NCBI GenBank assembly: GCA_021372575.1
Contig: JAJFUE010000098.1
Location: 1 to 36,126, forward strand
Length of the DNA stretch: 36,126 nt
Reading direction: 5' to 3'
DNA from: a bacterium
GTDB taxonomy: Bacteria; Sumerlaeota; Sumerlaeia; MVZB01
Of this stretch, positions 2,459-36,126 are shown one piece after another. The translations under genes and the position numbers were made by a program. Position 1 is the stretch's first letter, and every line of letters begins with the position of its first letter. The notes beneath the pieces are model-generated. The model made no database searches and was not told the origin of the DNA. It saw only the letters and a list, made by a program, of their open reading frames with translations.

Positions 2459-5400
2459 TTATCGATACAGCATCCAGGCGCCGGCAGCGTTACGCGGCTG
2501 GCCGGTGACGGTGAAATATGCGCTCCACGCCTGAAGCGATGAATTGGTTTCGCTGACGGCGCGGATTCGATAGTCGGAACCTGGCTGAACGGGCGGCAGC
2601 GCGATCTGCTCGATGCCGGTGCCGCCGGCTCCCCAGGCGTCCCGAAGGATCGCGATCGGCTGCGAGCCTTTCCAGAGCTCGAGGCGCACGACGGAGCCCG
2701 CCGTCACGGTGTCGGTCCGCCAACGGATCGTCAGCCAGCCGCCGTTGGCGACCACATCGCCGGCCTTCGGCGCAAGGATCTCGACCTCCTCCGGGACGTA
2801 CGCCCAAAGTTCCTTGCCCCACACGCCATCGTTGGCCGCGATCACGATCCGGCCGTCGCCCTTGAGGAAGAAATCGGGGCCCAGATCGGTCAGCACGGTT
2901 TCGTCGGGTTCGAGCAGCATCAGCATTTTCGTGCCGGCCGCCGTGCCGTCGGAAACCCACAATTGCTTGCCGCTCGCGGCGTTATTCGTAAAGAAGAAGC
3001 GCGTCCCGACGGCCCGGTCCGAATCGTAACCATCCTCGACCAGGTTCAGTCCCGACTTGAGGAGCGTCGTCCCGGCCGGCGTGCCGTCGCTCACCCAAAG
3101 CTCGCTGCGACCATAAACAGCCGGGTCCCGGAGCACGGAGAGGAACAACTTGCCATCGGTCGTGAGCTGCTTTCGGACGTTTCTTGCGTCCGGGAACGTT
3201 GCGAGCGCGATACAGCCGGCGGGAGTGCCGTCGGACTTGCGAACGACAAGATCCCTCGTCAGCGAAAAGCGTGTCGTTTCGCACGTATAAAACAGGCTGC
3301 TGCCGTAACTGATGAGCCCGCTGAACGCGCTGACGGTGGTTCCCTCATCGACGGTGCTGACCACGGACGCGCCGTTGATCTTCAGCAGTTTCGGTCCCCT
3401 GTCCATGCCGTAATCCTCAAGGCAATAGAGGTTGCCGCCCATCCTGACAAGATACATTAGGTGGGACCCCGAGCTGATCATGGTAGTATTGGCAACCGTG
3501 CCATCGGTCTTCCACAGCGACGAATACGGCATAAAATAGAACAGGCCGTTGAACTCCGACCAGAAATCGGGCGCGCTGCTATTGATCTTGAATGTGCCGC
3601 CGGGAGTGCCATCGGTGCGCCACAGCCTGAAATTGCCGTCTTCGAGCACGTTGAAATATAGAAGCCCGCCAACTTCGGCAACGCATTCGACCCAACTGTC
3701 CGGAAAGGATTTGACCATCACGGTCTCCGCGGCCGTCCCGTCGCTTTTCCAAAGTTGGAAGTTCAATCCGCCGGCGGGAGACCGCAGGACAAACCACAGG
3801 CAACTGGCGGCAGGGAAAAGGTCCAGGGACGAACCGGCGTTGTTGATGACGGGGAGCGTAAAGATCGGCTGCGTTCCGGCCACCGTGCCGTCGGAGCGCC
3901 ACAGGCGACCGATATATTTCGCATCCGAGCCGGTGAAGTAAAGCGCGCCTCTCCACGAGACCAGATTGCCCGCGTATGAGCTGCCGGCGCCGGGCACCAG
4001 ATCAACGAGCAGTTTGGTTCCCGCCTCGCTCAGGTCGCTGCGCCAGACTTCCTGGCCGTGTTCCTCGTCCATGCCGAGGAATTTCGCAGTGCCGTTGGTC
4101 TCCGCGAACGGCGCCTTGACACCCGACCAGGTCCGGTACTGCAGGGTCCCGAATTTCACCGTTCCGCCCGCGGTGCCGTCGCTGCACCAGAGCTGGCCGG
4201 TGCCGCTCCATGCCAGGGATCCGCTGCTTTTCTCCGGGAACCGGCCAAAAATCATGCGATTTGAATTGGCGTCGAGGAACCCGGGGACGGCCTCGCCGGG
4301 CGGGGAAATCAACGTCGGCGTCGTCGCCGAATCGATGACCTGCAGACCGGCATTGTTCAGGAAACAGGACTTGCCGGCGAACGCGACGATGTCGCGCACA
4401 TCGGATGCAATGCCGGGGATTTGTTCGAGCGCGTTCGTGACGGTGTCCACCCGGTACAGGGCCGGGGCACACCCACCCCACGGTATGCCAAACGGCACCT
4501 CGGTCGTCCCGAAATAAAGTTTCGATCCGACGGCGACAAACTGGATGAACTCCGATCTTGGATACGCGCTGAAGATGCGGGACGTTCCGGCCTGGGTGCC
4601 GTCGCTCGTCCAGAGCTCGTAATGCGGATACAGGATCGGACCGATATTCGGCTTCAATCCCGCTTGAACCACATACGGATCCACAAGCTTCGTGAAGAAC
4701 AACCTGTTGTTCACGAAAAGAATGCGCGCGCACGAAACCTGGAGAAGCAAACTCGTCCCCGAGGCGGAACCGTCGGTCTTCCAGATGGCGTCTTGCCCGT
4801 TGGAATCCTTGGCGGAGAAATAAACCACGCCGTTGCCGACCGTGAGCAGCGTTGGGGTCGAGGAGCCGCCGGGGCGCAGGTCCTTGACCATTTTCGTTCC
4901 GCCGGCGGTGCCGTCGGAGCGCCAGAGCTCGTCGCCGTCGATGCCATCGTTGGCGCCGAAATAGAGGATGTTGTTGAGCACGGCGAAATCGTGCGGCGAG
5001 GAGGACGCCGCGCCGGGATTGATGTCTTTCACCTTGACCGTGCCGGCCGTGGTGCCGTCGGTTTTCCAGAGCTCGGCGCCCGAGACGCCGTCGTCGGCCG
5101 CGAAATAAAGCGTCCCGCCGATCGCGGTCGCAAACTGAACGCCGGACGGCTCGAATCCCGGGCGGATGTCACGCACGAGGCGCGTCCCGGCCGCGGTGCC
5201 GTCGCTGCGCCAAAGCTCGCGGCCGGCGTCCGGATGCAGGGCCGTGAAATACAGGACGCCGTTTGCGACGACGAACCGGTCGGGATCGGACGAGGCGGCG
5301 CCCGGGAAAACGTCCTTCAGAAGATACGTTCCGGCGCTCGTGCCGTCGGAAACCCACAGCTCAAGGCCGCGGTCCTTGTCGGCGTTGGCGAAGAACAGCC

Positions 5401-5554
5401 GCTGGCCAACCATCGCATGAACCGGCGGCCGGGTCTTGATTTCACTGGAGATGCCGGTTCGGATGTCCTTGACGAGGCGCAGCGAATCCGCCTGGGCATG
5501 GTTCAGGCTGAAAACCAGAATTATCAAGATCGCGATAAGATGCGGGGGTTTCAT
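2459..5554 (-). CDS. Secreted ELWxDGT-repeat protein
   Basis: Large exported protein of 1031 residues built from about fifteen repeats with the signature ELWxSDGTxxGT followed by a hydrophobic run (e.g. ELWRSDGTAAGT, ELWKTDGTTAGT, QLWVSDGTAAGT). Some copies are degenerate (AIWKTDGS, EVWRSDLSEAGT). Such repeats probably fold as beta-propeller blades; no enzymatic residues are evident. Residues 1-23 (MKPPHLIAILIILVFSLNHAQA) form a Sec signal peptide. This start is favoured over 5605 because of the signal peptide and an upstream GGAG. The last 90 or so residues look like a Kre9/Ig-type module often found at the end of surface proteins. No membrane anchor or sorting motif is seen. The function is unknown; being upstream of the alpha-galactosidase suggests, without proving, a role at the cell surface in carbohydrate binding. 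Confidence 0.87.
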   Translation of the reverse strand: MKPPHLIAILIILVFSLNHAQADSLRLVKDIRTGISSEIKTRPPVHAMVGQRLFFANADKDRGLELWVSDGTSAGTYLLKDVFPGAASSDPDRFVVANGVLYFTALHPDAGRELWRSDGTAAGTRLVRDIRPGFEPSGVQFATAIGGTLYFAADDGVSGAELWKTDGTTAGTVKVKDINPGAASSSPHDFAVLNNILYFGANDGIDGDELWRSDGTAGGTKMVKDLRPGGSSTPTLLTVGNGVVYFSAKDSNGQDAIWKTDGSASGTSLLLQVSCARILFVNNRLFFTKLVDPYVVQAGLKPNIGPILYPHYELWTSDGTQAGTSRIFSAYPRSEFIQFVAVGSKLYFGTTEVPFGIPWGGCAPALYRVDTVTNALEQIPGIASDVRDIVAFAGKSCFLNNAGLQVIDSATTPTLISPPGEAVPGFLDANSNRMIFGRFPEKSSGSLAWSGTGQLWCSDGTAGGTVKFGTLQYRTWSGVKAPFAETNGTAKFLGMDEEHGQEVWRSDLSEAGTKLLVDLVPGAGSSYAGNLVSWRGALYFTGSDAKYIGRLWRSDGTVAGTQPIFTLPVINNAGSSLDLFPAASCLWFVLRSPAGGLNFQLWKSDGTAAETVMVKSFPDSWVECVAEVGGLLYFNVLEDGNFRLWRTDGTPGGTFKINSSAPDFWSEFNGLFYFMPYSSLWKTDGTVANTTMISSGSHLMYLVRMGGNLYCLEDYGMDRGPKLLKINGASVVSTVDEGTTVSAFSGLISYGSSLFYTCETTRFSLTRDLVVRKSDGTPAGCIALATFPDARNVRKQLTTDGKLFLSVLRDPAVYGRSELWVSDGTPAGTTLLKSGLNLVEDGYDSDRAVGTRFFFTNNAASGKQLWVSDGTAAGTKMLMLLEPDETVLTDLGPDFFLKGDGRIVIAANDGVWGKELWAYVPEEVEILAPKAGDVVANGGWLTIRWRTDTVTAGSVVRLELWKGSQPIAILRDAWGAGGTGIEQIALPPVQPGSDYRIRAVSETNSSLQAWSAYFTVTGQPRNAAGAWMLYR

Positions 5555-5827
5555 CCTCGTCACTCCACTTCGGTATTGCTCTTGCCGGATGGAATCGCCC
5601 GACATGCAATTCGAGCCGTCTCATGTAACCAACTCATTTAACTTATATACCGGTCACGAACCGGCAACAACCGTATTATCCATTCGGGAGCCGGCAACGC
5701 CGGCCGCGCCGACTCTTAAAAAAACCGGGTTTTCGCTTGCCAAATTCCGGATTGGGTCCCAACATATGGAATGAGAGGGTGGAAGTGTGGCTTTTACCCT
5801 CCGAATTTGGTATTGAGGTAGGACGCC

Positions 5828-6963
<1,136 letters not shown>

Positions 6964-7352
6964 GTTCGTGGATCGTCGATCGTCTTCGTGCTCGTAATCC
7001 TAAGCTGGCGTAGCCAGAACCAAATGATTGCATACCGTCCGGTTGTTTCTTGACCGGCGAATTCATCCGAGACCCGAGCCCCGGCAAGGGGCGACACAAA
7101 TTTGTATCGCTCCGTTGTGCCGCCCCTGCCGGGGCTCGGTATGACTGATGGAACTGCTGTCCCAGCGCTGACGCGCTGGGCTAACTTGTGTCGCCCCTGC
7201 CGGGGCTGGGCGTTCCATGACATGCGACTGCGTTCTCCAATATTTGTGCTCATTTTACATTCAATTTGGCGTGTTACAGAGTAATCGTAATCGAAACACA
7301 TCGATCAAGAAATGGCCGGCGAGGGCGCCGGCGAACTTTTTGCGTTTAGGTT
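6964..7352. repeat. Palindrome-rich intergenic region without a gene
   Basis: No convincing gene is seen in these 389 nt. Arms 7074-7099 and 7115-7139 (CCGAGCCCCGGCA / TGCCGGGGCTCGG cores) form a long near-perfect hairpin. A third copy of the right arm lies at 7186-7210. A perfect 8-bp stem with a 4-nt loop (CCCAGCGC/GCGCTGGG) occupies 7161-7180. Short fragments of the GATTAC/GAGCAC repeat family occur in reverse orientation at 6986-6999 and 7281-7295. The hairpin just after glnB could also end its transcript, although no clear U-tract follows. Confidence 0.65.
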
Positions 7353-11552: not shown

Positions 11553-12743
11553 ATGAAGAACCTGATCAAATGCGCTGTGGCGTTCCAACTGGCACTGGGG
11601 GTGGCGGCGATGGCGGAAACGGATGTGGCGGCGGTGACGCGCGACAATACGGCGTTCGCGCTCGACATGTATTCGTTGCTCAAGAAGGAGCCGGGGAACC
11701 TGTTCTTTTCGCCCTACAGCATCTCGGCGGCGCTGGCGATGACGCAGGGCGGCGCGCGCGGCGAGACCGCGGCCGAGATGGAAAAGGCGCTGCGTTTTGC
11801 GCAGGGCGAACAGGTTCATGCGGCGTTCGGCAAGCTCAACGGGGAACTTGAGAAGGCGCAGGAAGGCGGCAAGATCAAGCTCTGCATCGCCAATTCGCTG
11901 TGGCCGCAGGCCGGCCACCCGTTCCTGCCGGAATACCTCGCGCTGATCAAAAAGAATTACGGCGCGAGCGTGACGCCGCTCGATTACAAGGCCGACCCGC
12001 AAGCCGCGGCCGAAACGATCAACAAGTGGGTCGAGCAAAAAACGCAGGACAAGATCAAGCAGCTCTTTTCCGGGCTCGACAGGCAGACGGCGATGGTCCT
12101 CGTGAACGCCATTTATTTTAAAGGCAACTGGGCCGAGCAGTTCGAGCCCAAGCGCACGCAGGAAGGCGAATTCACGCTGGCCGACGGGTTAAAAGTCAAA
12201 GCCCCGATGATGGGGATTAAAAAGAATTTCCCCAACGCCAAGCTCGACGGCGTTCAACTCCTCGAAATGCCCTATGTCGGCGACCGACTGTCGATGGTCG
12301 TGATCCTGCCGAACGAGCCGGCCGGCATCACCCAACTCGAGGACCGGCTCGACACCGCCACGCTGGCCTCGTGGATCAAACAGATGACGCCGCGGGAGAT
12401 CATCGTTTCGATCCCGAAATTCAAGATCACGTGGGGCGCGAAGCAACTGGCCGAGCCGCTCAAGGCGCTCGGGATGCGCGCGGCGTTCGAGGGCGGGACG
12501 GCCGATTTCTCCGGCATGGACGGCACGCGAAACCTGTTCATCAGCCAGGTCGTTCACAAGGCGTTCGTCGAGGTCAACGAGGAAGGGACCGAGGCGGCCG
12601 CGGCGACGGGCGTCGTCATGACGCTCACGGCGGTGCGCGAGCCGCTCATGTTCAGGGCCGACCACCCGTTCCTGTTCCTGATCCGCGACAAATCGACCGG
12701 CGCGATCCTGTTCATGGGCCGGGTGATGGACCCGACGAAATAA
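11553..12743 (+). CDS. Secreted serpin (serine protease inhibitor)
   Basis: A 396-residue serpin, a suicide-type protease inhibitor, with a signal peptide (residues 1-21, ending VAAMA) that directs it out of the cytoplasm. It shows NLFFSPYSISAALAMTQGGARGET near the N-terminus, VNAIYFKGNW, and the hinge EEGTEAAAAT (residues 343-352), whose small residues indicate an inhibitory rather than a substrate-type serpin. Counting from the hinge by alignment with antichymotrypsin puts P1 at Thr359 and P1' at Ala360; Arg362 is an alternative if the loop register is shifted. The loop C-terminal to P1' is slightly short. ADHPFLFLIRD and GRVMDP close the domain. The target could be an endogenous or competitor protease. 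A heptanucleotide array starts directly after the stop codon. Confidence 0.95.
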   Translation: MKNLIKCAVAFQLALGVAAMAETDVAAVTRDNTAFALDMYSLLKKEPGNLFFSPYSISAALAMTQGGARGETAAEMEKALRFAQGEQVHAAFGKLNGELEKAQEGGKIKLCIANSLWPQAGHPFLPEYLALIKKNYGASVTPLDYKADPQAAAETINKWVEQKTQDKIKQLFSGLDRQTAMVLVNAIYFKGNWAEQFEPKRTQEGEFTLADGLKVKAPMMGIKKNFPNAKLDGVQLLEMPYVGDRLSMVVILPNEPAGITQLEDRLDTATLASWIKQMTPREIIVSIPKFKITWGAKQLAEPLKALGMRAAFEGGTADFSGMDGTRNLFISQVVHKAFVEVNEEGTEAAAATGVVMTLTAVREPLMFRADHPFLFLIRDKSTGAILFMGRVMDPTK

Positions 12744-19583: not shown

Positions 19584-19614
19584 AAAAAAGCGGGCGGGAA
19601 ATGATCCCGCCCGC
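19584..19614 (-). terminator. Intrinsic terminator of beta-helix gene 1
   Basis: A perfect 10-bp GC-rich stem (19590-19599 with 19605-19614), 5-nt loop, followed on the minus strand by six U residues (A-run 19584-19589). It lies 27 nt after the stop codon. Confidence 0.9.
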
Positions 19615-19641
19615 CGAATGGCTTCGTGAGTGCCGAGTTGG

Positions 19642-21186
19642 TTACTGCAGGGTGAACGTCGAGAGTTCGACCGGAACGCCCATGAGGAACGCGCGGTCGG
19701 AACCGATGTTCAGGGCCTTGACCGACTGGTTATAAACCGTCAGGTCATAGGCGTTGATGGCGGCCGTCGGATCGCCGCTGCCGTCCATCGCACCGTAACC
19801 CGGGTTCTTGCCAGGCTGGACGCAGTTGGAAAGCACCCAGTCCGTCGCATACGCGTTGCTGGTGCTCCAGTCGTTGCACTGGACCATCTTGAACGTGGAG
19901 CCAGCGGCGCGCCGGCCGGCCTGGATGTTGCTGCCGTTGATGCCGAAGAAGTTGCACCGGGTGGCCGTCGTCTGATGGTTGCCCGTGGCGCACGCCGTGC
20001 GCGGGCAGACGTTGACGAAATTGCCGCGCGTGTATGCGGCAACCGTCGGGACGTAGATGTCGCTGTTGACCAGCGTGACGGCGGACTGCGGGCAGTCGAT
20101 GTTGATGCCCGAGCCGCAGCCGATGATCGCACTGTTGGTCACATTGAGGACGTTCTTCGACTGATCCATCAGGCTGATGGCGCCGAAGGCGTTCAGGTTG
20201 TCCGGCGAAGTGCGCGACCAACGGGTGCCGTCGATATAGTTGGCGTTCGGTGCGTCATTGCGAAGGTAGCAGTTGTCAACATTGATCACGAACCCGTTCG
20301 GGTGGGGGGTGCCGAAGCCCATCGTGGCGACCGGGCAGCCCATGCGCGCGCCGTTGATCATCGTCGGGTCGGTATAGGCGAACCGGCAGTTCTTCAGGTT
20401 CAGCGTGCCCCACTGGGTCGAATAGTTGCTGCCCTCGAAGCCGCACGTCACGACATAGCCCTGGATCGTGTTGCAGCGGCAGTTCTCGAGCGTCATGACG
20501 GCGCCGCTGGTAAGATGCGCGCGAACGACCGTGTAGTTGTTCGCCGCGCTCGGATTAACCGACGGCAGGCCGGCCGGGATCTGGAAATCGATGTCCCGCA
20601 GGATGACGGTCGTGCCAAGCGGAGCGGTCGTCGTGGAATCGGCCGTCAGCAACCAGAGCGGATAATTGTTCGTATTGGCGACATTCGTGCCGAGGTTCTT
20701 GAAGACCAGGTTTTCCAGCGTAGTCGTGGAAGCCACGTTCCACGGTTTCGCGCCGGCGGCCACCTGGGTCGGCGTGGGATTCCAGATGTTGTTCAGGTTA
20801 ATGCCGCGGTTGCTGGTTCCCTGGCCATCGAAGGTGATCGTGCCGCCCGCGTTCGAACCAACGCGGCAGCCATAACCAAGGATGTACCAAAGATTGCCAC
20901 TGCCGGCCGCCGGGATCTTCAACGTCGGGGCCTGACCCGCTGCGGCAACAATCGACGTCTGCGGAGCATAGATATACTTCGTTCCGGCTGTGGTGTAAGT
21001 CGCGCTGTCATCGATCGAAATCGTGTCGCCACCCGATCCGACGTTGACGGCGTCAATCGCCGCATCCACGGTCGAGAAGTTCGGCGAGACGTTGTTCGCC
21101 GTCGCATACACGTGATACGTCGTGGCTCCCGCCACCTGCGGCAGCAACAACATCCCAAGGCAAAGCATCGCTTGCAACTTTCTCAT
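19642..21186 (-). CDS. Secreted beta-helix paralogue 1
   Basis: A 514-residue exported protein, signal peptide about residues 1-21 (LLLPQVAGA). After it comes TTYHVYATANNVSPNF and GGDTISIDDSATY, resembling the cap of right-handed beta-helix proteins. The body has repeated strands with an Asn-Cys ladder (LENCRCN, LKNCRFA, VDNCYLR, VTNSAII, LVNSDIY). It ends with the block shared by all four paralogues: CNDWS, NPGYGAMDG, LTVYNQSVKALNIGSDRAF, GVPVELS. AAAAAGGAGCGG precedes the ATG. No catalytic triad, anchor or sorting signal is recognised. Paralogue 2 is its closest relative here. It may be a surface protein, adhesin or polysaccharide-binding protein, but the function is unknown. Confidence 0.85.
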   Translation of the reverse strand: MRKLQAMLCLGMLLLPQVAGATTYHVYATANNVSPNFSTVDAAIDAVNVGSGGDTISIDDSATYTTAGTKYIYAPQTSIVAAAGQAPTLKIPAAGSGNLWYILGYGCRVGSNAGGTITFDGQGTSNRGINLNNIWNPTPTQVAAGAKPWNVASTTTLENLVFKNLGTNVANTNNYPLWLLTADSTTTAPLGTTVILRDIDFQIPAGLPSVNPSAANNYTVVRAHLTSGAVMTLENCRCNTIQGYVVTCGFEGSNYSTQWGTLNLKNCRFAYTDPTMINGARMGCPVATMGFGTPHPNGFVINVDNCYLRNDAPNANYIDGTRWSRTSPDNLNAFGAISLMDQSKNVLNVTNSAIIGCGSGINIDCPQSAVTLVNSDIYVPTVAAYTRGNFVNVCPRTACATGNHQTTATRCNFFGINGSNIQAGRRAAGSTFKMVQCNDWSTSNAYATDWVLSNCVQPGKNPGYGAMDGSGDPTAAINAYDLTVYNQSVKALNIGSDRAFLMGVPVELSTFTLQ

Positions 21187-21234
21187 GAATAACCGCTCCT
21201 TTTTGAATAATGCAAAAACCCGTAAGTGGCATAC

Positions 21235-21262
21235 ATAATATTGAATATTGGCTTTCAGTCAA
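21235..21262 (-). promoter_or_regulatory. Predicted promoter of beta-helix gene 1
   Basis: On the minus strand TTGACT (21262-21257) and TATTAT (21240-21235) are separated by 16 bp, about 50 nt upstream of the ATG, in an AT-rich leader. Confidence 0.5.
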
Positions 21263-21346
21263 GGAAATAGTGATATTGCGCGACGAAAACAACCCGATGG
21301 ATATTGATCAAGATGTCATCTATCGCCTTTTATGAATCATCGACTG

Positions 21347-21362
21347 TGTGAATATAGTCACA
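21347..21362. promoter_or_regulatory. CRP-like palindrome upstream of beta-helix gene 1
   Basis: TGTGA-N6-TCACA, an exact match to the E. coli CRP core, lies about 90 nt upstream of the predicted -35. A related site occurs upstream of gene 2. Whether this organism uses a CRP/FNR-type regulator here is inference. Confidence 0.35.
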
Positions 21363-21533
21363 ATTCAAAGACGTGCAAAAACAGAATTCAGCTTTATTGT
21401 TTAATTTATTTGCAATATTGAGAATATTCCATCGAGGAAAGTTCAAGGCATTCCCGGCCTCCGGAATCCGATTCGCAACCGCCAAGCGCGCCGGAGGCCC
21501 TGGCCCGCACCTTAACCGGATCGGTGTACAAAG
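21363..21533. other. AT-rich intergenic stretch, no gene seen
   Basis: This is the rest of the 407-nt gap between beta-helix genes 1 and 2. No open reading frame with a ribosome-binding site and no RNA gene is apparent. Confidence 0.6.
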
Positions 21534-21562
21534 AAAGCGGGCGGGATCCGGATCCCGCCCGC
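21534..21562 (-). terminator. Intrinsic terminator of beta-helix gene 2
   Basis: A perfect 26-nt palindrome (21537-21562, GCGGGCGGGATCC and its complement) followed on the minus strand by a short U-rich tract. The stem core matches that of the gene 1 terminator, evidence of common descent. Confidence 0.8.
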
Positions 21563-21593
21563 CCAGTCGCGCGCATTCGATCGATTCAAGGAA

Positions 21594-23129
21594 TTAGCGA
21601 ACGCCGAACGTCGAGAGCTCAACCGGGACGCCGAAGTTGAAGTCACGGTTGGAACCAATGTTCTGCGACTTGATCGTATTGTTATAGACGGTGAAGTCGC
21701 GAGCGTTGATGGCGGGCATCGGGTCAGCTTCGCCGGCCATCGCGCCGTAACCCGGGTTGAGGCCGGGGTTCACGCAACTGGCGGTGACCCAGTTGCTGGC
21801 ATAGGCATTTTCCGGGCTCCAGTCGTTGCAGGTGGTCATCGAGAAGACCGAGCCGGCGCCGCGCGGGCCGGAGTTGATCCGGCTGCCCTTCACGCCGTAG
21901 AAGTTGCAACGCGTCGCGGAGCACTGAAGGTCGGCCGACGTGGCAACCGCTGAGCGCTCGGCCACGGAGATGAAGTAGCCCTGCGTGTACTGGCCGGCGG
22001 CCGGCACGTAGATGTCGCTGTTGAACAGGCCGACATGCGCGTGGGCCGAGTTGATCTCGATGCCGGCGCCCTTGGCGACGAACGCACTATTCGTGATGGT
22101 CACGTTGTTCTTCTGGTAATTGGCCAGGAAGAGAGCACCCAGGGCTTCACTGGTGTCGCGCGTGCCCGCCGTGAGGGCCGGAGAGATGTGCGTCGGCGAC
22201 CAGATACCGTTGTTGGTGGCATCCGAACGCAGGTAGCTGTTGTCGATGTTCATCACGTAGCCGTTGATGTTGTTCGTCGAGCCGCCGCCCCAGATCGCAA
22301 CCGGGCTGCCCATCTGGCGGTAGTTCGTCATGGTTGGATCGTCATAAACGAAGCGGCAGTTCTTGATGTTGACGATGCCGCACTGCGTCGGGCGGTCGGC
22401 CGTCTCATTGGAGGCGGAAACGACATAGCCGGTCAGCGTGTTGGAGCGACAGTTCTCGATGTTGATCGTCGCGATGTTGGTCGGGTGGACACGGATGCCG
22501 ATGTAAGCGGCGCCCGCGCCAATGGTGACTGTGGGTTTGCCGGGCAGCCACTGGAAGTCGATGTACTTGAAGTTGACGACCGTGCCGACAGGGACGACCG
22601 AGGTGCCGTCGTCGGAGAGGATCCAGAACACGTAGTTACTGGTGCAGACGGTGTTCGTCCCCATGTTTTTGACGATCAGGTTCTCGTACGTGTTCGTCGA
22701 AGCGCCGTAGGCCGCCCATGCAGCGTCCGTGTTCGACTGGTTGATGAACCGGCGGGCGGTTTTGTTGCCGTCAAGGGTGATCGTGCCACCCGCAATCGAG
22801 CCGAGCCGGAAGCCGGGCTTGGTGATGCCGAGGCAGAATGACCCGCTGGTGCCCAGGAGGCTTTGGATCACAGGGGACTGGCTGGATGCCGCGACAATCG
22901 AGGTGTCGTTTTGGGCAATGGTGAGCGTCGCGCTGAGGGAATACGTCGAACTGTCGTCGATCGAAATGGTGTCGCCACCGGTGCCCGCGTTCACCGCCTG
23001 AACGGCACTGGTCAGGTTGTCGAAGTTGGGACTGACGTTCGTTGCGGTTTTGAAAACGTGATACGTCGTCGCCCACGACTGACCTGCGAGTAAAATCCCG
23101 AGACAGATCAGCAAGGAAAGTTTTTTCAT
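21594..23129 (-). CDS. Secreted beta-helix paralogue 2
   Basis: A 511-residue exported protein with a signal peptide (about residues 1-20, ending GQSWA). It shares with paralogue 1 the post-signal segment TTYHVFKTATNVSPNF, GGDTISIDDSSTYS, and a final block with NPGYGAMAG, FTVYNNTIKSQNIGSNRDF and GVPVELSTF. The Asn-Cys strand pattern (IENCRSN, IKNCRFV, IDNSYLR, ITNSAFV, LFNSDIY) indicates a parallel beta-helix. AAAGGAG lies 8 nt before the ATG. The gene has its own predicted promoter and terminator, so it appears monocistronic. Function unknown; no active-site residues of pectate lyases or other beta-helix enzymes are evident by eye. Confidence 0.85.
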   Translation of the reverse strand: MKKLSLLICLGILLAGQSWATTYHVFKTATNVSPNFDNLTSAVQAVNAGTGGDTISIDDSSTYSLSATLTIAQNDTSIVAASSQSPVIQSLLGTSGSFCLGITKPGFRLGSIAGGTITLDGNKTARRFINQSNTDAAWAAYGASTNTYENLIVKNMGTNTVCTSNYVFWILSDDGTSVVPVGTVVNFKYIDFQWLPGKPTVTIGAGAAYIGIRVHPTNIATINIENCRSNTLTGYVVSASNETADRPTQCGIVNIKNCRFVYDDPTMTNYRQMGSPVAIWGGGSTNNINGYVMNIDNSYLRSDATNNGIWSPTHISPALTAGTRDTSEALGALFLANYQKNNVTITNSAFVAKGAGIEINSAHAHVGLFNSDIYVPAAGQYTQGYFISVAERSAVATSADLQCSATRCNFYGVKGSRINSGPRGAGSVFSMTTCNDWSPENAYASNWVTASCVNPGLNPGYGAMAGEADPMPAINARDFTVYNNTIKSQNIGSNRDFNFGVPVELSTFGVR

Positions 23130-23169
23130 TACTCAACTCCTTTGATGGATTTAATGCCATGTAGCCTCC

Positions 23170-23199
23170 ATATTATGGACACTTTTGTCGATTAGTCAA
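23170..23199 (-). promoter_or_regulatory. Predicted promoter of beta-helix gene 2
   Basis: On the minus strand TTGACT (23199-23194) and TAATAT (23175-23170) are separated by 18 bp, about 40 nt upstream of the ATG. The -35 is the same hexamer as at gene 1. Confidence 0.55.
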
Positions 23200-23233
23200 G
23201 CGGTATTTTACGAATGTGTCTTTATTGACAAAT

Positions 23234-23249
23234 GGTGAATCATTTCACA
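23234..23249. promoter_or_regulatory. CRP-like palindrome upstream of beta-helix gene 2
   Basis: GGTGA-N6-TCACA, one base off the CRP core. The common pattern with the gene 1 site is GTGAAT-N4-TCACAAT. It lies about 35 nt upstream of the predicted -35. Confidence 0.35.
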
Positions 23250-23606
23250 ATCTCTTGACTCGCACAACGCATACAACATTCATGAAGTCCCTGTTTAACC
23301 ACTGATAGGCAACCCGGAACGCCGAATATCGAGGTCATATCTTTGTCACTTACTTGGTTATTTCATCCCATATTAACGTTGTGCCTGCATTGATTCGAAC
23401 CACGCCCCGGTCCCAACGGGATCCGCCATCCAGCAAAGGGCCATTACAAAGATTATCAAAACCTTACATCGTTCAGGGCGCGTTTTTCCGCTTCCGGGGA
23501 AAGGCGAACATACCCTGGGTTTGAAGGCAACAGACCGAAAAAAATATCCGACCGGGAATTGCCAGATTGCTGGCACCCGACCGGTCATTATGCCCACGCC
23601 ACACAC
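23250..23606. other. Intergenic stretch, no gene seen
   Basis: This is the remainder of the 538-nt gap between beta-helix genes 2 and 3. A TTCGAATC motif on the minus strand (23393-23400) recalls a tRNA T-loop, but no tRNA can be folded around it. No coding region with a ribosome-binding site is seen. Confidence 0.6.
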
Positions 23607-23607
23607 T

Positions 23608-23645
23608 AAAAAAAACCGGCCAAGGGCATGCGACCCTTGGCCGGT
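23608..23645 (-). terminator. Intrinsic terminator of beta-helix gene 3
   Basis: An 11-bp stem (23616-23626 with 23634-23644, CCGGCCAAGGG), 7-nt loop, then eight U residues on the minus strand (A-run 23608-23615). It lies 23 nt after the stop codon. Confidence 0.9.
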
Positions 23646-23667
23646 ATGTTCGGGAATCAGCTGTGAC

Positions 23668-25218
23668 TTAGTTCACCTGGAACGCGGACAGCTCAACCGG
23701 GACGCCCATGTTGAAGGCACGGTCGGAGCCGATGTTGGCCGCCTTGATCGTCTGGTTATAGACCGTGAAGTCACGGGCATCGATGCCCGGCTGCACATCC
23801 GAGCCGCCGGCCGGCAGACCGTAGCCCGGGTTCAGGCCGGGGTTCTGGCAACCGGTGGTGATCCAGCCCGGAGCATAGGCATTGACCGGCGACCAGTCGT
23901 TGCAGTTGACCATCACCCAGCGATCGGTTGACGGCATGATGGAGTTTTGCAGGTTGCTGCCGGCAAGGCCGTAAAGGTTGCAACGGGTCATCGTCGTCTG
24001 GTGGTTGCCGAGATACGCCACGCGCGGCGAGATGTTGACGAAGTAACCGGGGGTCACATAACCCGTCGGGGTGCCGTCGGATGCGGTGGTGACGCCGTTC
24101 ACATACAGATCGCTGTTGGTCACGCGGATCTGCGAGCTGGTGGTTTCAAGCGCGAGGACCGCGCCCATGCCGACCAGCGCGCTGTTGGTGACCGTGAGGT
24201 TGTTCTTGCTGCATGCATTGAGCGTAATGCAACCGGTGCTGTTGCTGGTCTCGGACGTGCGCGTCCAAGCAGCGATCTGGGTGGCATGCAGGGCATCGGT
24301 GCGGATGAAGCAGTTGTCGATGTTGATGTCATAACCGCCGTTGCGAGGATCCCAACCGCCGGTCTGAATCGGAGCCTGGACCAGCGGGCTCGTCGTAAAC
24401 TGATCCTGGTAGAAGGAGCAGTTCTTGATATTGACGGTGCCGCCAGCCTGCGGGTATTGGGCAGCACCCGAACCGATATCAACGATGTAGCCGCGCGAGC
24501 CGTTGCTGCGGCAGTTTTCGATGTTGAACGTCGCGCCGTTGTCGGGGCCGAGGGTGAGGGCACCGACTTTTTGGCCGGCGATCATCGGCTGGGTCGCGGG
24601 GAGCTTGAACTCGACGTTGCGGATGTTAATCACGTTGCCCCCGTTCATTGGAGACGCTGTGGACCAACCGCCGGCGCTGATGGCCCAGAAGTACTTGGCC
24701 CCAGTATTGCGCCCGTCGTTTACACCTTGGATGACGATATTCTCAATCGTCGTTGTCGCAGTGGCCGTGGTCGGCCAAATCACAGAGGTGCTTAAACCGA
24801 TGAAACGGCCGATGTTGTTGCCGCCATCGAACGTGATCCGGCCGTCTTCACCGGCGGCGCTGGAACCGATCTGGACGCCAGGGAAGCCGATGGAGACAAA
24901 CCACTGCGTGGTGTTTGTGCCACCCTTGAAGTAAATAATCGGGGCGGTGCCCGAAGCCGCAACGATCTTGATAGGCTTACTGATCGGGCTCATGCCGCTG
25001 GTCGAAGTTCCCAGATCGTAGGTGGAACTGTCATCGATCATGAGCGTATCGGTCGTCGGGTATCCAGCCAAGACAGAGGTGAGCGCGGCCTTGAACGCCG
25101 TGCCGTTGGCAGTATTGGTGCCGCCACCCGAAATGTGCTTGACCAGTCCGGCCGCGCAAACCGAACTCGCGAACATCATGAACGCAACAAAACAAGATAA
25201 AACTTGCAATCTCCTCAT
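23668..25218 (-). CDS. Secreted beta-helix paralogue 3
   Basis: A 516-residue exported protein, signal peptide about residues 1-22 (MMFASSVCA). The front part (ALTSVLAGYPTTDTLMIDDSSTYDLG) is similar in layout to paralogues 1 and 2 but diverged. The beta-helix body has the Asn-Cys strand motif (IENCRSN, IKNCSFY, IDNCFIR, VTNSALV, VTNSDLY). The last 90 residues are almost identical to paralogue 4 (CNDWSPVNAY, GWITTGCQNPGLNPGYG, DARDFTVYNQTIKAANIGS). The corresponding DNA is also visibly very similar, so this pair is the more recent duplication. An AAGGGGGATCGGAG segment precedes the ATG. Function unknown. Confidence 0.85.
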   Translation of the reverse strand: MRRLQVLSCFVAFMMFASSVCAAGLVKHISGGGTNTANGTAFKAALTSVLAGYPTTDTLMIDDSSTYDLGTSTSGMSPISKPIKIVAASGTAPIIYFKGGTNTTQWFVSIGFPGVQIGSSAAGEDGRITFDGGNNIGRFIGLSTSVIWPTTATATTTIENIVIQGVNDGRNTGAKYFWAISAGGWSTASPMNGGNVINIRNVEFKLPATQPMIAGQKVGALTLGPDNGATFNIENCRSNGSRGYIVDIGSGAAQYPQAGGTVNIKNCSFYQDQFTTSPLVQAPIQTGGWDPRNGGYDINIDNCFIRTDALHATQIAAWTRTSETSNSTGCITLNACSKNNLTVTNSALVGMGAVLALETTSSQIRVTNSDLYVNGVTTASDGTPTGYVTPGYFVNISPRVAYLGNHQTTMTRCNLYGLAGSNLQNSIMPSTDRWVMVNCNDWSPVNAYAPGWITTGCQNPGLNPGYGLPAGGSDVQPGIDARDFTVYNQTIKAANIGSDRAFNMGVPVELSAFQVN

Positions 25219-25268
25219 CGCTCCGATCCCCCTTGATTTAAGATATTCAATTCAGACAATTCAGACCG

Positions 25269-25298
25269 ATATCATGACCCATCCGACTTTTTTTTCAA
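25269..25298 (-). promoter_or_regulatory. Predicted promoter of beta-helix gene 3
   Basis: On the minus strand TTGAAA (25298-25293) and TGATAT (25274-25269), 18-bp spacer, about 50 nt upstream of the ATG. Weaker match than at genes 1 and 2. Confidence 0.4.
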
Positions 25299-25412
25299 GC
25301 CTTTTTTGTGAAATAATGCTCCGATTAACATTATGATAAAGTTGTTAATAATGTCCAGTGCGTATCTATCTCAAACAACAACAAGCATCTATATGCACAG
25401 CTAGGTTTGCGG

Positions 25413-25607
25413 TCAGGCTTTGACTGTTTGCCCATTCGTGCTTTTTTGCACAAATTCGCCGGGCGGTCCCGGCTCGTCCGGGTGCCGCCGGCCCTTCTCC
25501 ATCCTCGTTTTTCTCGTAATGAAGGGGTAATTAGACCCGCGCACAGGATAGTTCCCATCGAATGCGGCCGTCTGCCCGTGCTGGCGAGTCATCGATTCAA
25601 CGCAGTT
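25413..25607 (-). pseudogene. Decayed 3' fragment of the DNA methyltransferase gene
   Basis: Translation of the minus strand gives about 64 residues matching the C-terminus of the intact methyltransferase at 27452-28225. For example, GNYPVRGSNYPFITRK aligns with GNYYLRGFNYLFIMRK, preceded by RQHGQTAAFD against RRHWHTAAVE. Both end at a similar position. The fragment has no start codon or catalytic motifs and starts right next to the terminator of beta-helix gene 4. It lies upstream of gene 3 exactly as the intact methyltransferase lies upstream of gene 4 (194 and 217 nt). This is best read as the scar of a tandem duplication. Confidence 0.8.
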
Positions 25608-25641
25608 TTTCGCAACACAAGAAAAATCAAGGGCCCACCCC

Positions 25642-25700
25642 AAAAGAAATCCGGCCAGCGCCCTGAGCCAGAGGTACTGGCTCAGGGATCGCTTGGCCGG
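25642..25700 (-). terminator. Hairpin terminator of beta-helix gene 4
   Basis: A long interrupted hairpin: outer stem CCGGCCA/TGGCCGG (25651-25657 with 25694-25700) and inner 11-bp stem CCCTGAGCCAG/CTGGCTCAGGG. The following U-rich tract on the minus strand is weak. The outer stem resembles the gene 3 terminator. Confidence 0.75.
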
Positions 25701-25722
25701 AAATGTTCGGAGCAGAAGTCGC

Positions 25723-27234
25723 TTACTTGATCTGGAACGCCGACATCTCAACCGGGACGCCCAGGTTGAAGGCGCGGTTGGAACCGATGTTGGCGGCCTT
25801 GATCGTCTGGTTATAGACCGTGAAGTCACGCGCATCGATGCCCGGTTGCACGTCCGCACCGCCGGCCGGCAGGCCGTAGCCCGGGTTCAGGCCGGGGTCC
25901 TGGCAGCCGGTGGTGATCCAGCCGGTGGCATAGGCATTGACGGGGCTCCAGTCGTTGCAGTTGACCATGACGAATCGCGAGCCGGCCGGCTTAAGAAAGG
26001 CGAGCAGGTTGCTGCCGGCTTCGCCGTAGAGGTTGCACCGGGTCATCGTCGTCTGGTTGTTGCCGGCGGCCACAACGCGCTGCGACAGGTTGACGAAATA
26101 GCCCGGCGTATAGAGCGTCGGATTCTTCACATACAGGTCGCAGTTGGTCATGACGGCCTTGCAGGCAAGCGTGTCGATGTTGAGGCAGGCGCCGGTGCCC
26201 ACGAAGGCACAGTTGGTGGCGGTCAGGTCGTTCTTCGCATAGCTCAGAAGGCTGACGCAGCCAAGGCTGTTGCTGGTGTCGTCGGTATAGGGCCAGCTGC
26301 CGGTGATCCGCCCGCTGCGCGTGAGGTCGGTGCGCAGGAAGCAGTTATTCATGGTGACGGTATAGCCGCCCGTGTTGCTGGTGCCCCAGCCTTCGACGAG
26401 CAGCGGAGCCGTCGAATACGTGCTGGTCGTGTAAGCGTCGGAAACAAACTGGCAGTTGGTGAAATTGACGGTGCCGGTCTGGGAGGCGAAATTGCCGACC
26501 TTGGAGCCGACGATCGCGCAGGAACCCATCGTGCCGTTGACGCGGCAATTGGTGACGTTGATCGTGCTGCCGTTTTCGGGGTTGAGGTTCATGCCGTAGA
26601 TTTCGGAGCCGGTGGAGACGCCGTTTTTGCCGCCGGACTTCCTCTGGTCGTCAAACACGACATTGACGCCGGTGAGATTCACGGTGCAGTTGGCCGCCAT
26701 GCCCGTGGCCTGCGTCCAGCCGCTGACCATGATCGTATAAGCATCGCACCGGTACCAGACGCCGATGCCGGTGATGACCAGGTTTTCCAGCTTGGTGGTC
26801 GTTGCGCCGGCGGGAGCGGTCCACGCGGCGGAGTCGGTTCTGTTCATAATGATGAAGCGGGTATGATAGCCGCCGCCATCGAGCGTGATCTGGCCGCCAT
26901 CGACCGAACCGAGTTGGAACCCGGGCGCCTCGACGCGGAACATGAAATTGCCCGAACTGTCCGCCGTATAAATCCGCGGATGCTTGCCGGAAGCGGCCAC
27001 GATTTTGATCGGCTTCGTGATCTGATAATAATCCGCCGTCATCGTCGGCAGGGTGTACGTCAGGTCGTCATCGATCGAAACCGTGATGTCGCCACTCGGG
27101 TAGTTGGCTTGCGCCTGGGTAATCGCCGCGGTCAGCGTTGCAACGTCGCCGCCGGTCACCGAGATTGCGCCCGCGTGCTGGGCTGTAAAAACCACCATGG
27201 CCCCCAAAAGCAACAGTACATTCAGATGTCTCAT
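25723..27234 (-). CDS. Secreted beta-helix paralogue 4
   Basis: A 503-residue exported protein. The ATG at 27234 (MRHLNVLLLLGAMVVF) is preferred over 27264 because of a strong AAGGAGGAG 5 nt upstream and a proper signal peptide ending QHAGA. After IDDDLTYTL, the beta-helix body repeats the Asn-Cys strand motif (VTNCRVN, FTNCQFV, MNNCFLR, ATNCAFV, MTNCDLY, MTRCNLY). The C-terminal block matches paralogue 3 almost exactly. The gene lies between the intact methyltransferase upstream and the methyltransferase fragment downstream. No anchor, sorting motif or catalytic residues are recognised. The family's role remains unknown. Confidence 0.85.
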   Translation of the reverse strand: MRHLNVLLLLGAMVVFTAQHAGAISVTGGDVATLTAAITQAQANYPSGDITVSIDDDLTYTLPTMTADYYQITKPIKIVAASGKHPRIYTADSSGNFMFRVEAPGFQLGSVDGGQITLDGGGYHTRFIIMNRTDSAAWTAPAGATTTKLENLVITGIGVWYRCDAYTIMVSGWTQATGMAANCTVNLTGVNVVFDDQRKSGGKNGVSTGSEIYGMNLNPENGSTINVTNCRVNGTMGSCAIVGSKVGNFASQTGTVNFTNCQFVSDAYTTSTYSTAPLLVEGWGTSNTGGYTVTMNNCFLRTDLTRSGRITGSWPYTDDTSNSLGCVSLLSYAKNDLTATNCAFVGTGACLNIDTLACKAVMTNCDLYVKNPTLYTPGYFVNLSQRVVAAGNNQTTMTRCNLYGEAGSNLLAFLKPAGSRFVMVNCNDWSPVNAYATGWITTGCQDPGLNPGYGLPAGGADVQPGIDARDFTVYNQTIKAANIGSNRAFNLGVPVEMSAFQIK

Positions 27235-27451
27235 AACCACTCCTCCTTCGCGATTTTCGTTCAAAAAAAAACAGTGATTAAACTAAGCACTTTCCAATCA
27301 AGTTAATCAAGTCTTTTCTTGTGAAAAAAGGGGCATAAATTTCCATCGAAAAAGCTGTAAATAATACAGCCTCCGTGATGTATCTCCAATAATATGAATA
27401 CTAAAGGCATATGCCAGGAATGCAATCCAGTTGTATTGCGTGAATTCTTGT

Positions 27452-36041: not shown

Positions 36042-36126
36042 ATAGGGGTAGGGAGAGCCTTCCGACTCCCCCTCCCTCCGAACCGGACGGGCGGGTCTCC
36101 CGCATCCGGCTCTCCGGTCGGTGGTT
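36042..36126 (-). mobile_element. 3' end of a group II intron (domains V and VI), truncated by window edge
   Basis: On the minus strand, 36112-36080 reads as domain V: GAGCCGGATG...GTCCGGTTC, with the AGC catalytic triad, a GC-rich upper stem with a GAGA-type cap, and an asymmetric bulge. Domain VI follows with an 8-bp stem (AGGGGGAG/CTCTCCCT) and the CCTACCCCTAT end. The candidate branch-point A is 36049 and the 3' splice site is near 36042. The reverse transcriptase/maturase gene would lie beyond the right edge. The insertion is upstream of cydA in the same orientation. Confidence 0.85.

Follow-up and report, generated by a model that had tools for sequence, protein, structure and literature searches.

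Four tandem genes for secreted proteins of predicted beta-helix fold in a Sumerlaeota bacterium

What do four tandem genes do for a bacterium when their protein products are alike at both ends and have diverged in between? The question is raised by a 36,126-nucleotide stretch of DNA from a member of the Sumerlaeota (Sumerlaeia; MVZB01; GenBank assembly GCA_021372575.1, contig JAJFUE010000098.1), called the window below. Its minus strand carries, between positions 19642 and 27234, a quartet of intact open reading frames (ORFs), P25, P23, P21, and P19 in the order of transcription. The best reading is that they belong to an uncatalogued family of secreted beta-helix proteins that is lineage-specific and mostly ordinary in kind. 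As to function, we lean toward lineage-specific, Sec-exported paralogues with a right-handed parallel beta-helix, each copy most likely binding or modifying a different glycan outside the cytoplasm.

The four proteins and their predicted fold

The array consists of the following genes, each for a putatively secreted paralogue of predicted beta-helix fold:

25723-27234, minus strand: P25, ORF, array gene 1, 503 residues, ATG at 27234
23668-25218, minus strand: P23, ORF, array gene 2, 516 residues
21594-23129, minus strand: P21, ORF, array gene 3, 511 residues
19642-21186, minus strand: P19, ORF, array gene 4, 514 residues, the copy modeled with AlphaFold

The ORFs and their alignments confirm the four paralogues of the preliminary description: all have a signal peptide of the Lys/Arg-plus-hydrophobic type, an IDDS-TY cap, a ladder of Asn-Cys/Ser rungs, and a C-terminal block that extends from C-N-D-W-S through NPGYG, TVYN, and NIGS-R-F to GVPVE. 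The alignment runs end to end with a mean column identity of 61%, and protein identity is 51% for P19/P21, 51-52% for P23/P25, and about 40% between the two groups. Among the Arg and Lys residues, R237, K338, and R412 (P23 numbering) are invariant. At the DNA level, a 3' repeat of 300 nucleotides (nt) recurs along the array at a spacing of 1952, 2074, and 2055 nt. The C-terminal blocks were located by alignment:

25726-25968, minus strand: C-terminal block of P25
23671-23913, minus strand: C-terminal block of P23
21597-21839, minus strand: C-terminal block of P21
19645-19887, minus strand: C-terminal block of P19

The AlphaFold model of P19, built on the four-sequence alignment, has stacked beta strands in a beta-helix (predicted local distance difference test, pLDDT, 66.9; predicted template modeling score, pTM, 0.76), with repeated strands along most of the chain and a pLDDT above 80 in several rungs and of 82-92 in the N-terminal cap. 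The final 55 residues are without a model, and the C-terminal 160 residues run alone gave a pLDDT of 25-30 for the block and no usable model. The best folds found by Foldseek in the PDB were the GH87 glucanase, the AlgE6 epimerase, PL6 lyases, RbmB, GH28, and tailspikes; the matches in a viral set were mostly pectate-lyase-like or tail proteins, and the strong matches are beta-helices. The signal peptides, the model, and these matches bear out the secreted beta-helix first proposed from the sequence, and the model places the proteins among the predicted right-handed parallel beta-helices of the pectin-lyase-like superfamily. With template modeling scores (TM-scores) of only 0.2-0.5 and a medium-confidence model, these fold neighbors identify a beta-helix without pointing to a function.

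The quartet matched no sequence family in Pfam, NCBIfam, PHROG, or the PDB and is therefore filed by fold. The C-terminal block, which had not been recognized as a named domain, likewise matched no Pfam, NCBIfam, or PHROG family, and two scans by peptide pattern plus tblastn found it in none of the genomes of about 85,000 species. Compared with the pectin-lyase-like superfamily (PL6, GH28, GH87, AlgE epimerases, tailspikes), the quartet has in common the predicted fold, the N-terminal cap, the Asn ladder, and the export signal, but it has no family-level sequence match (none to the PL6, GH28, GH87, or AlgE models and none to a PDB sequence), no known catalytic set, and only the TM-scores given above. 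The choice-of-anchor-Q proteins (NF041518), common in the source genome and its class, are also secreted beta-helices; the model gave no quartet match at a threshold of at least 25 bits, and the search of the quartet's own genome returned other loci only. By eye the two have similar closing segments (D/N-P-aromatic ... D-F-x-V ... I-G-S/A), but the quartet lacks the W-x-x-Y tail and the C-terminal profile comparison was not significant (E 0.27). Set against the relative L006 of G001 (DPQWA..DLTVGNPVL..DIGS), the C-terminal block looks by eye like a diverged form of the choice-of-anchor-Q closing segment, an interpretation that was rejected when this comparison failed. The chlamydial polymorphic membrane proteins (Pmps), described as autotransporters with a large beta-helical domain (PMC11166332), resemble the quartet as a paralogous set of beta-helix surface proteins. 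The Pmps are autotransporters, whereas in the quartet neither a C-terminal barrel nor any further autotransporter domain was recognized.

Transcription units, distribution, and age of the family

Downstream of each quartet gene lies a hairpin of -26 to -42 kcal/mol, with a T tract that is clear at three of the terminators and weaker at that of P25:

25651-25700, minus strand: P25 terminator hairpin, -42.3 kcal/mol, z score -6.7, weak T tract
23615-23645, minus strand: P23 terminator hairpin, T8, with CCGAACAT..CCGGCCAAG in common with the P25 terminator
21535-21564, minus strand: P21 terminator hairpin, z score only -2.1 in GC-rich surroundings
19589-19615, minus strand: P19 terminator hairpin, stem GGCGGGCGGGATC common to the P21 terminator

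The terminator of P23 resembles that of P25, and the terminator of P19 that of P21. Sigma-70-like boxes lie in the AT-rich leader ahead of each gene (the intergenic stretches are 217-538 nt long); the region holds 12 of these boxes where 3.8 are expected, and the leaders do not align convincingly among the four genes. The boxes are:

27361-27417, minus strand: weak promoter-like boxes before P25, only 9/12 consensus matches
25271-25357, minus strand: promoter-like boxes before P23, TGGACA-16-CATAAT and TTGAAA-16-CATGAT, consensus match only
23172-23199, minus strand: promoter-like boxes before P21, TTGACT-16-CATAAT, consensus match only
21235-21262, minus strand: promoter-like boxes before P19, TTGACT-16-TATTAT, consensus match only

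With its own AT-rich leader and strong hairpin terminator, each gene has the layout of a transcription unit of its own, as the preliminary description held, and the copies may be expressed separately.

The family reaches beyond the quartet locus. A fifth member, C-terminal block included, lies on another contig of the same genome (C35; L017:7441-8967), where it adjoins two GH28-type genes and a heparinase II/III-like gene; the GH28-type neighbors match the NCBIfam alpha-d-galacturonidase model with an E value of about 1e-102, below the model's curated cut-off. Among the genomes searched, the full family with its C-terminal block was found in the source genome only. Scans of the genomes of the 85,000 or so species, by peptide pattern plus tblastn for the whole family and for the C-terminal block, gave no relatives, and neither did a scan of viral contigs or tblastn against plasmids; the contig scans rely on short peptide patterns with clear tblastn confirmation, so that remote members may escape them. 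In 60 other genomes from the family, class, phylum, and outgroups, the matches were confined to the N-terminal cap, a feature that the quartet has in common with relatives and with a second tandem array in the source genome. In the relatives examined, no beta-helix gene of the quartet family stood beside the counterparts of the flanking dehydrogenase and methylase genes, and within the 1.5 kb read on each side the site looks array-free.

The copies are old. Identity at 4-fold sites is 0.45-0.64 between copies versus 0.38 by chance, which places the bodies near silent-site saturation and the duplications far back. The GC content at third codon positions (GC3) is 0.78-0.84 in the quartet genes versus a genome-sample mean of 0.80, and their codon composition is native. 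The tree unites P23 with P25 (100/100) and P19, P21, and the C35 copy (100/100), with the C35 copy branching with P19 (91/92). Of the two pairs drawn earlier, P23/P25 stands as a clade; P19/P21 does not stand as an exclusive pair.

The 3' ends of P23 and P25 are more alike than their bodies: of the silent sites, 39/54 are identical in the final 118 columns of the alignment versus 44/90 in the columns before them (p 0.009), the two ends are identical over a run of 35 nt, and their terminal 300 nt are 84% identical as DNA versus 62-66% for other copies. A similar pattern is seen in the second array, which consists of three tandem genes for secreted beta-helix proteins (family B; contig C12, L016:7763-12776). 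B1 is closer to B3 in its body and to B2 in the final 52 columns (20/23 silent sites, p 0.007); B2 and B3 have a nearly identical stop-plus-terminator stretch in common. These few sites suggest occasional gene conversion of 3' ends between copies, in a comparison whose split point was picked post hoc and to which conserved codons could contribute. Family B resembles the quartet in its homologous N-terminal ~170 residues (hhalign E 3e-13), its tandem layout, its own terminators, and its similar 3' ends, but differs in the body and the C-terminal block (block comparison E 0.015 over 15 columns). Its B1 protein matches DUF5123 weakly (E 9e-4, short of the Pfam cut-off), and a two-module fusion of family B on contig C31 is joined to InlB-like repeats.

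A C-terminal tail of other secreted proteins and the surroundings of the array

Many secreted proteins of varied architecture, in the source genome and its order, end in the tail N-A-x3-W-x2-Y-x (examples are loci L105, L107-L110, and L145-L164). Within a 662-kb sample, W-x-x-[YFL], followed by no more than one residue, is the terminus of 20 of 142 signal-peptide-like ORFs versus 5 of 397 others, a rate inflated by a sample partly picked around beta-helix genes and resting on a home-made signal-peptide rule. Genome-wide, the exact pattern has 23 sites in the source genome, whereas the three closest genomes have 6, 2, and 5 and the remaining ones 0-2; read backwards as a control, it has none in the source genome and at most 2 elsewhere. 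Each of the 21 sites re-examined lies at the end of a long open frame, and most of these frames encode a signal peptide. Six tail proteins tested against NCBIfam gave no model match for the tail, and a shallow check of the literature on C-terminal sorting signals met no title or abstract describing it. The tail looks like a signal, so far uncatalogued, for sorting or attachment, and as a find it looks newer than the quartet family; together with the 3'-end exchange, it deserves a second look. Membership of the quartet in this tail group was rejected, as its proteins end in S-x-F-x-[VIL]-x. Family B has a variant, N-R-A-H-G-W-[TA]-V-L-[KE], that is absent from the quartet, and the sole tail carrier in the window is an ELWxxDGT-repeat protein (2459-5605, minus strand). 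Another common C-terminus, ITKQVRIEAPSGGARIG, is found on other secreted proteins (L111 on C167; L018:6722-9727).

The array is flanked by an isocitrate/isopropylmalate dehydrogenase gene on one side and a DNA methylase gene on the other. Large antisense ORFs over P19 and P25 lack independent evidence and resemble the shadow frames of genes with high GC3. Elsewhere in the window are matches to two Rfam models, the Acido-Lenti-1 RNA (7161-7207, plus strand) and a group II intron (36042-36114, minus strand), and a full-length serpin gene (11553-12743, plus strand; Pfam E 1.6e-123) that adjoins genes for trigger factor and ClpP on the same strand. Tandem repeats of 7 bp (e.g., AATGATG, AGTGCTG, AGTCCTG) are strewn across the genome, with 50 rows in 662 kb versus 4 rows of period 8, and occur in the window at 12743, 15170, 19493, 33287, and 33349; hexamer runs of CGATTA/TCGTGC also recur in the sampled contigs.

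Candidate function and its alternatives

On the reading we prefer, the signal peptide would direct each protein to Sec export, the fixed N-terminal cap would open the helix, and the fixed C-terminal block would close it, giving a rod capped at both ends. Outside the cytoplasm, the diverged rungs and loops would adapt each copy to a glycan of its own, which it would cut, isomerize, or only bind; different polysaccharide ligands per copy, one of the roles first suggested, remain the best inference. Having its own promoter-like sites and terminator, each copy could respond independently. The array would have grown by old tandem duplication, with one copy placed elsewhere among carbohydrate-active genes, and occasional swaps of 3' segments, comprising the C-terminal block and terminator, would help the ends stay alike. 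Several points weigh against this reading: the quartet itself lies outside any polysaccharide locus, between the dehydrogenase and methylase genes; no known catalytic signature or carbohydrate-active family was matched in Pfam or NCBIfam; the TM-scores are low and the model confidence is medium; and the exchange signal is modest.

The failure to match a catalytic family would also suit non-enzymatic surface or matrix proteins, that is, beta-helix rods for adhesion or a structural coat whose copies differ in partner and not in substrate. Old, divergent bodies and Asn-Cys ladders are as compatible with adhesins as with enzymes, and further secreted proteins with a beta-helix are numerous in the genome (14 choice-of-anchor-Q stretches), some fused to other repeat domains. 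However, the quartet showed neither a membrane anchor nor a known surface-anchoring domain and also lacks the tail common to other secreted proteins, and we consider such rods a possible but unlikely answer. Both tandem arrays might instead form a modular display system, with diversified bodies on shared 3' modules (C-terminal block plus terminator) spread by gene conversion and with the quartet block as a novel signal for export or attachment in place of the N-A-x3-W-x2-Y-x tail; this proposal is speculative, and we think it improbable.

A switching repertoire, in which one copy is expressed at a time or copies are reshuffled to vary the surface, was the phase or antigenic choice of the preliminary description. 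Separate promoter-like sites and terminators, divergent bodies between similar ends, and the signs of 3' segment exchange in two arrays speak for it, as do homopolymer runs before two of the genes (A8 before P23, 25288-25295, minus-strand reading; T9 before P25, 27263-27271). Yet the silent sites of the bodies are near saturation, there are no fresh duplicates, the one inverted pair (23 nt, 87%) lies inside coding sequence and offers no useful invertible repeat, no recombinase was recognized among the window genes scanned, and no silent fragments were seen. Programmed switching is not supported and, in our judgment, very unlikely, with the A8/T9 leader tracts the sole feature worth watching. 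An origin as phage tailspikes or other captured mobile cargo would account for a beta-helix fold in common with tailspikes, but PHROGs, viral contigs, and plasmids gave no match, the genes have their own signal peptides and host-like GC3, and their neighbors encode a dehydrogenase and a DNA methylase; we regard this origin as extremely improbable.

If the preferred reading of glycan-directed, Sec-exported paralogues is true, the quartet and its fifth copy would add an uncatalogued beta-helix family in a little-studied lineage and provide a diverged set of paralogues ready for relating loop changes to glycan specificity. The tail, if it is a signal, would raise the question of how this lineage sorts proteins to its surface.

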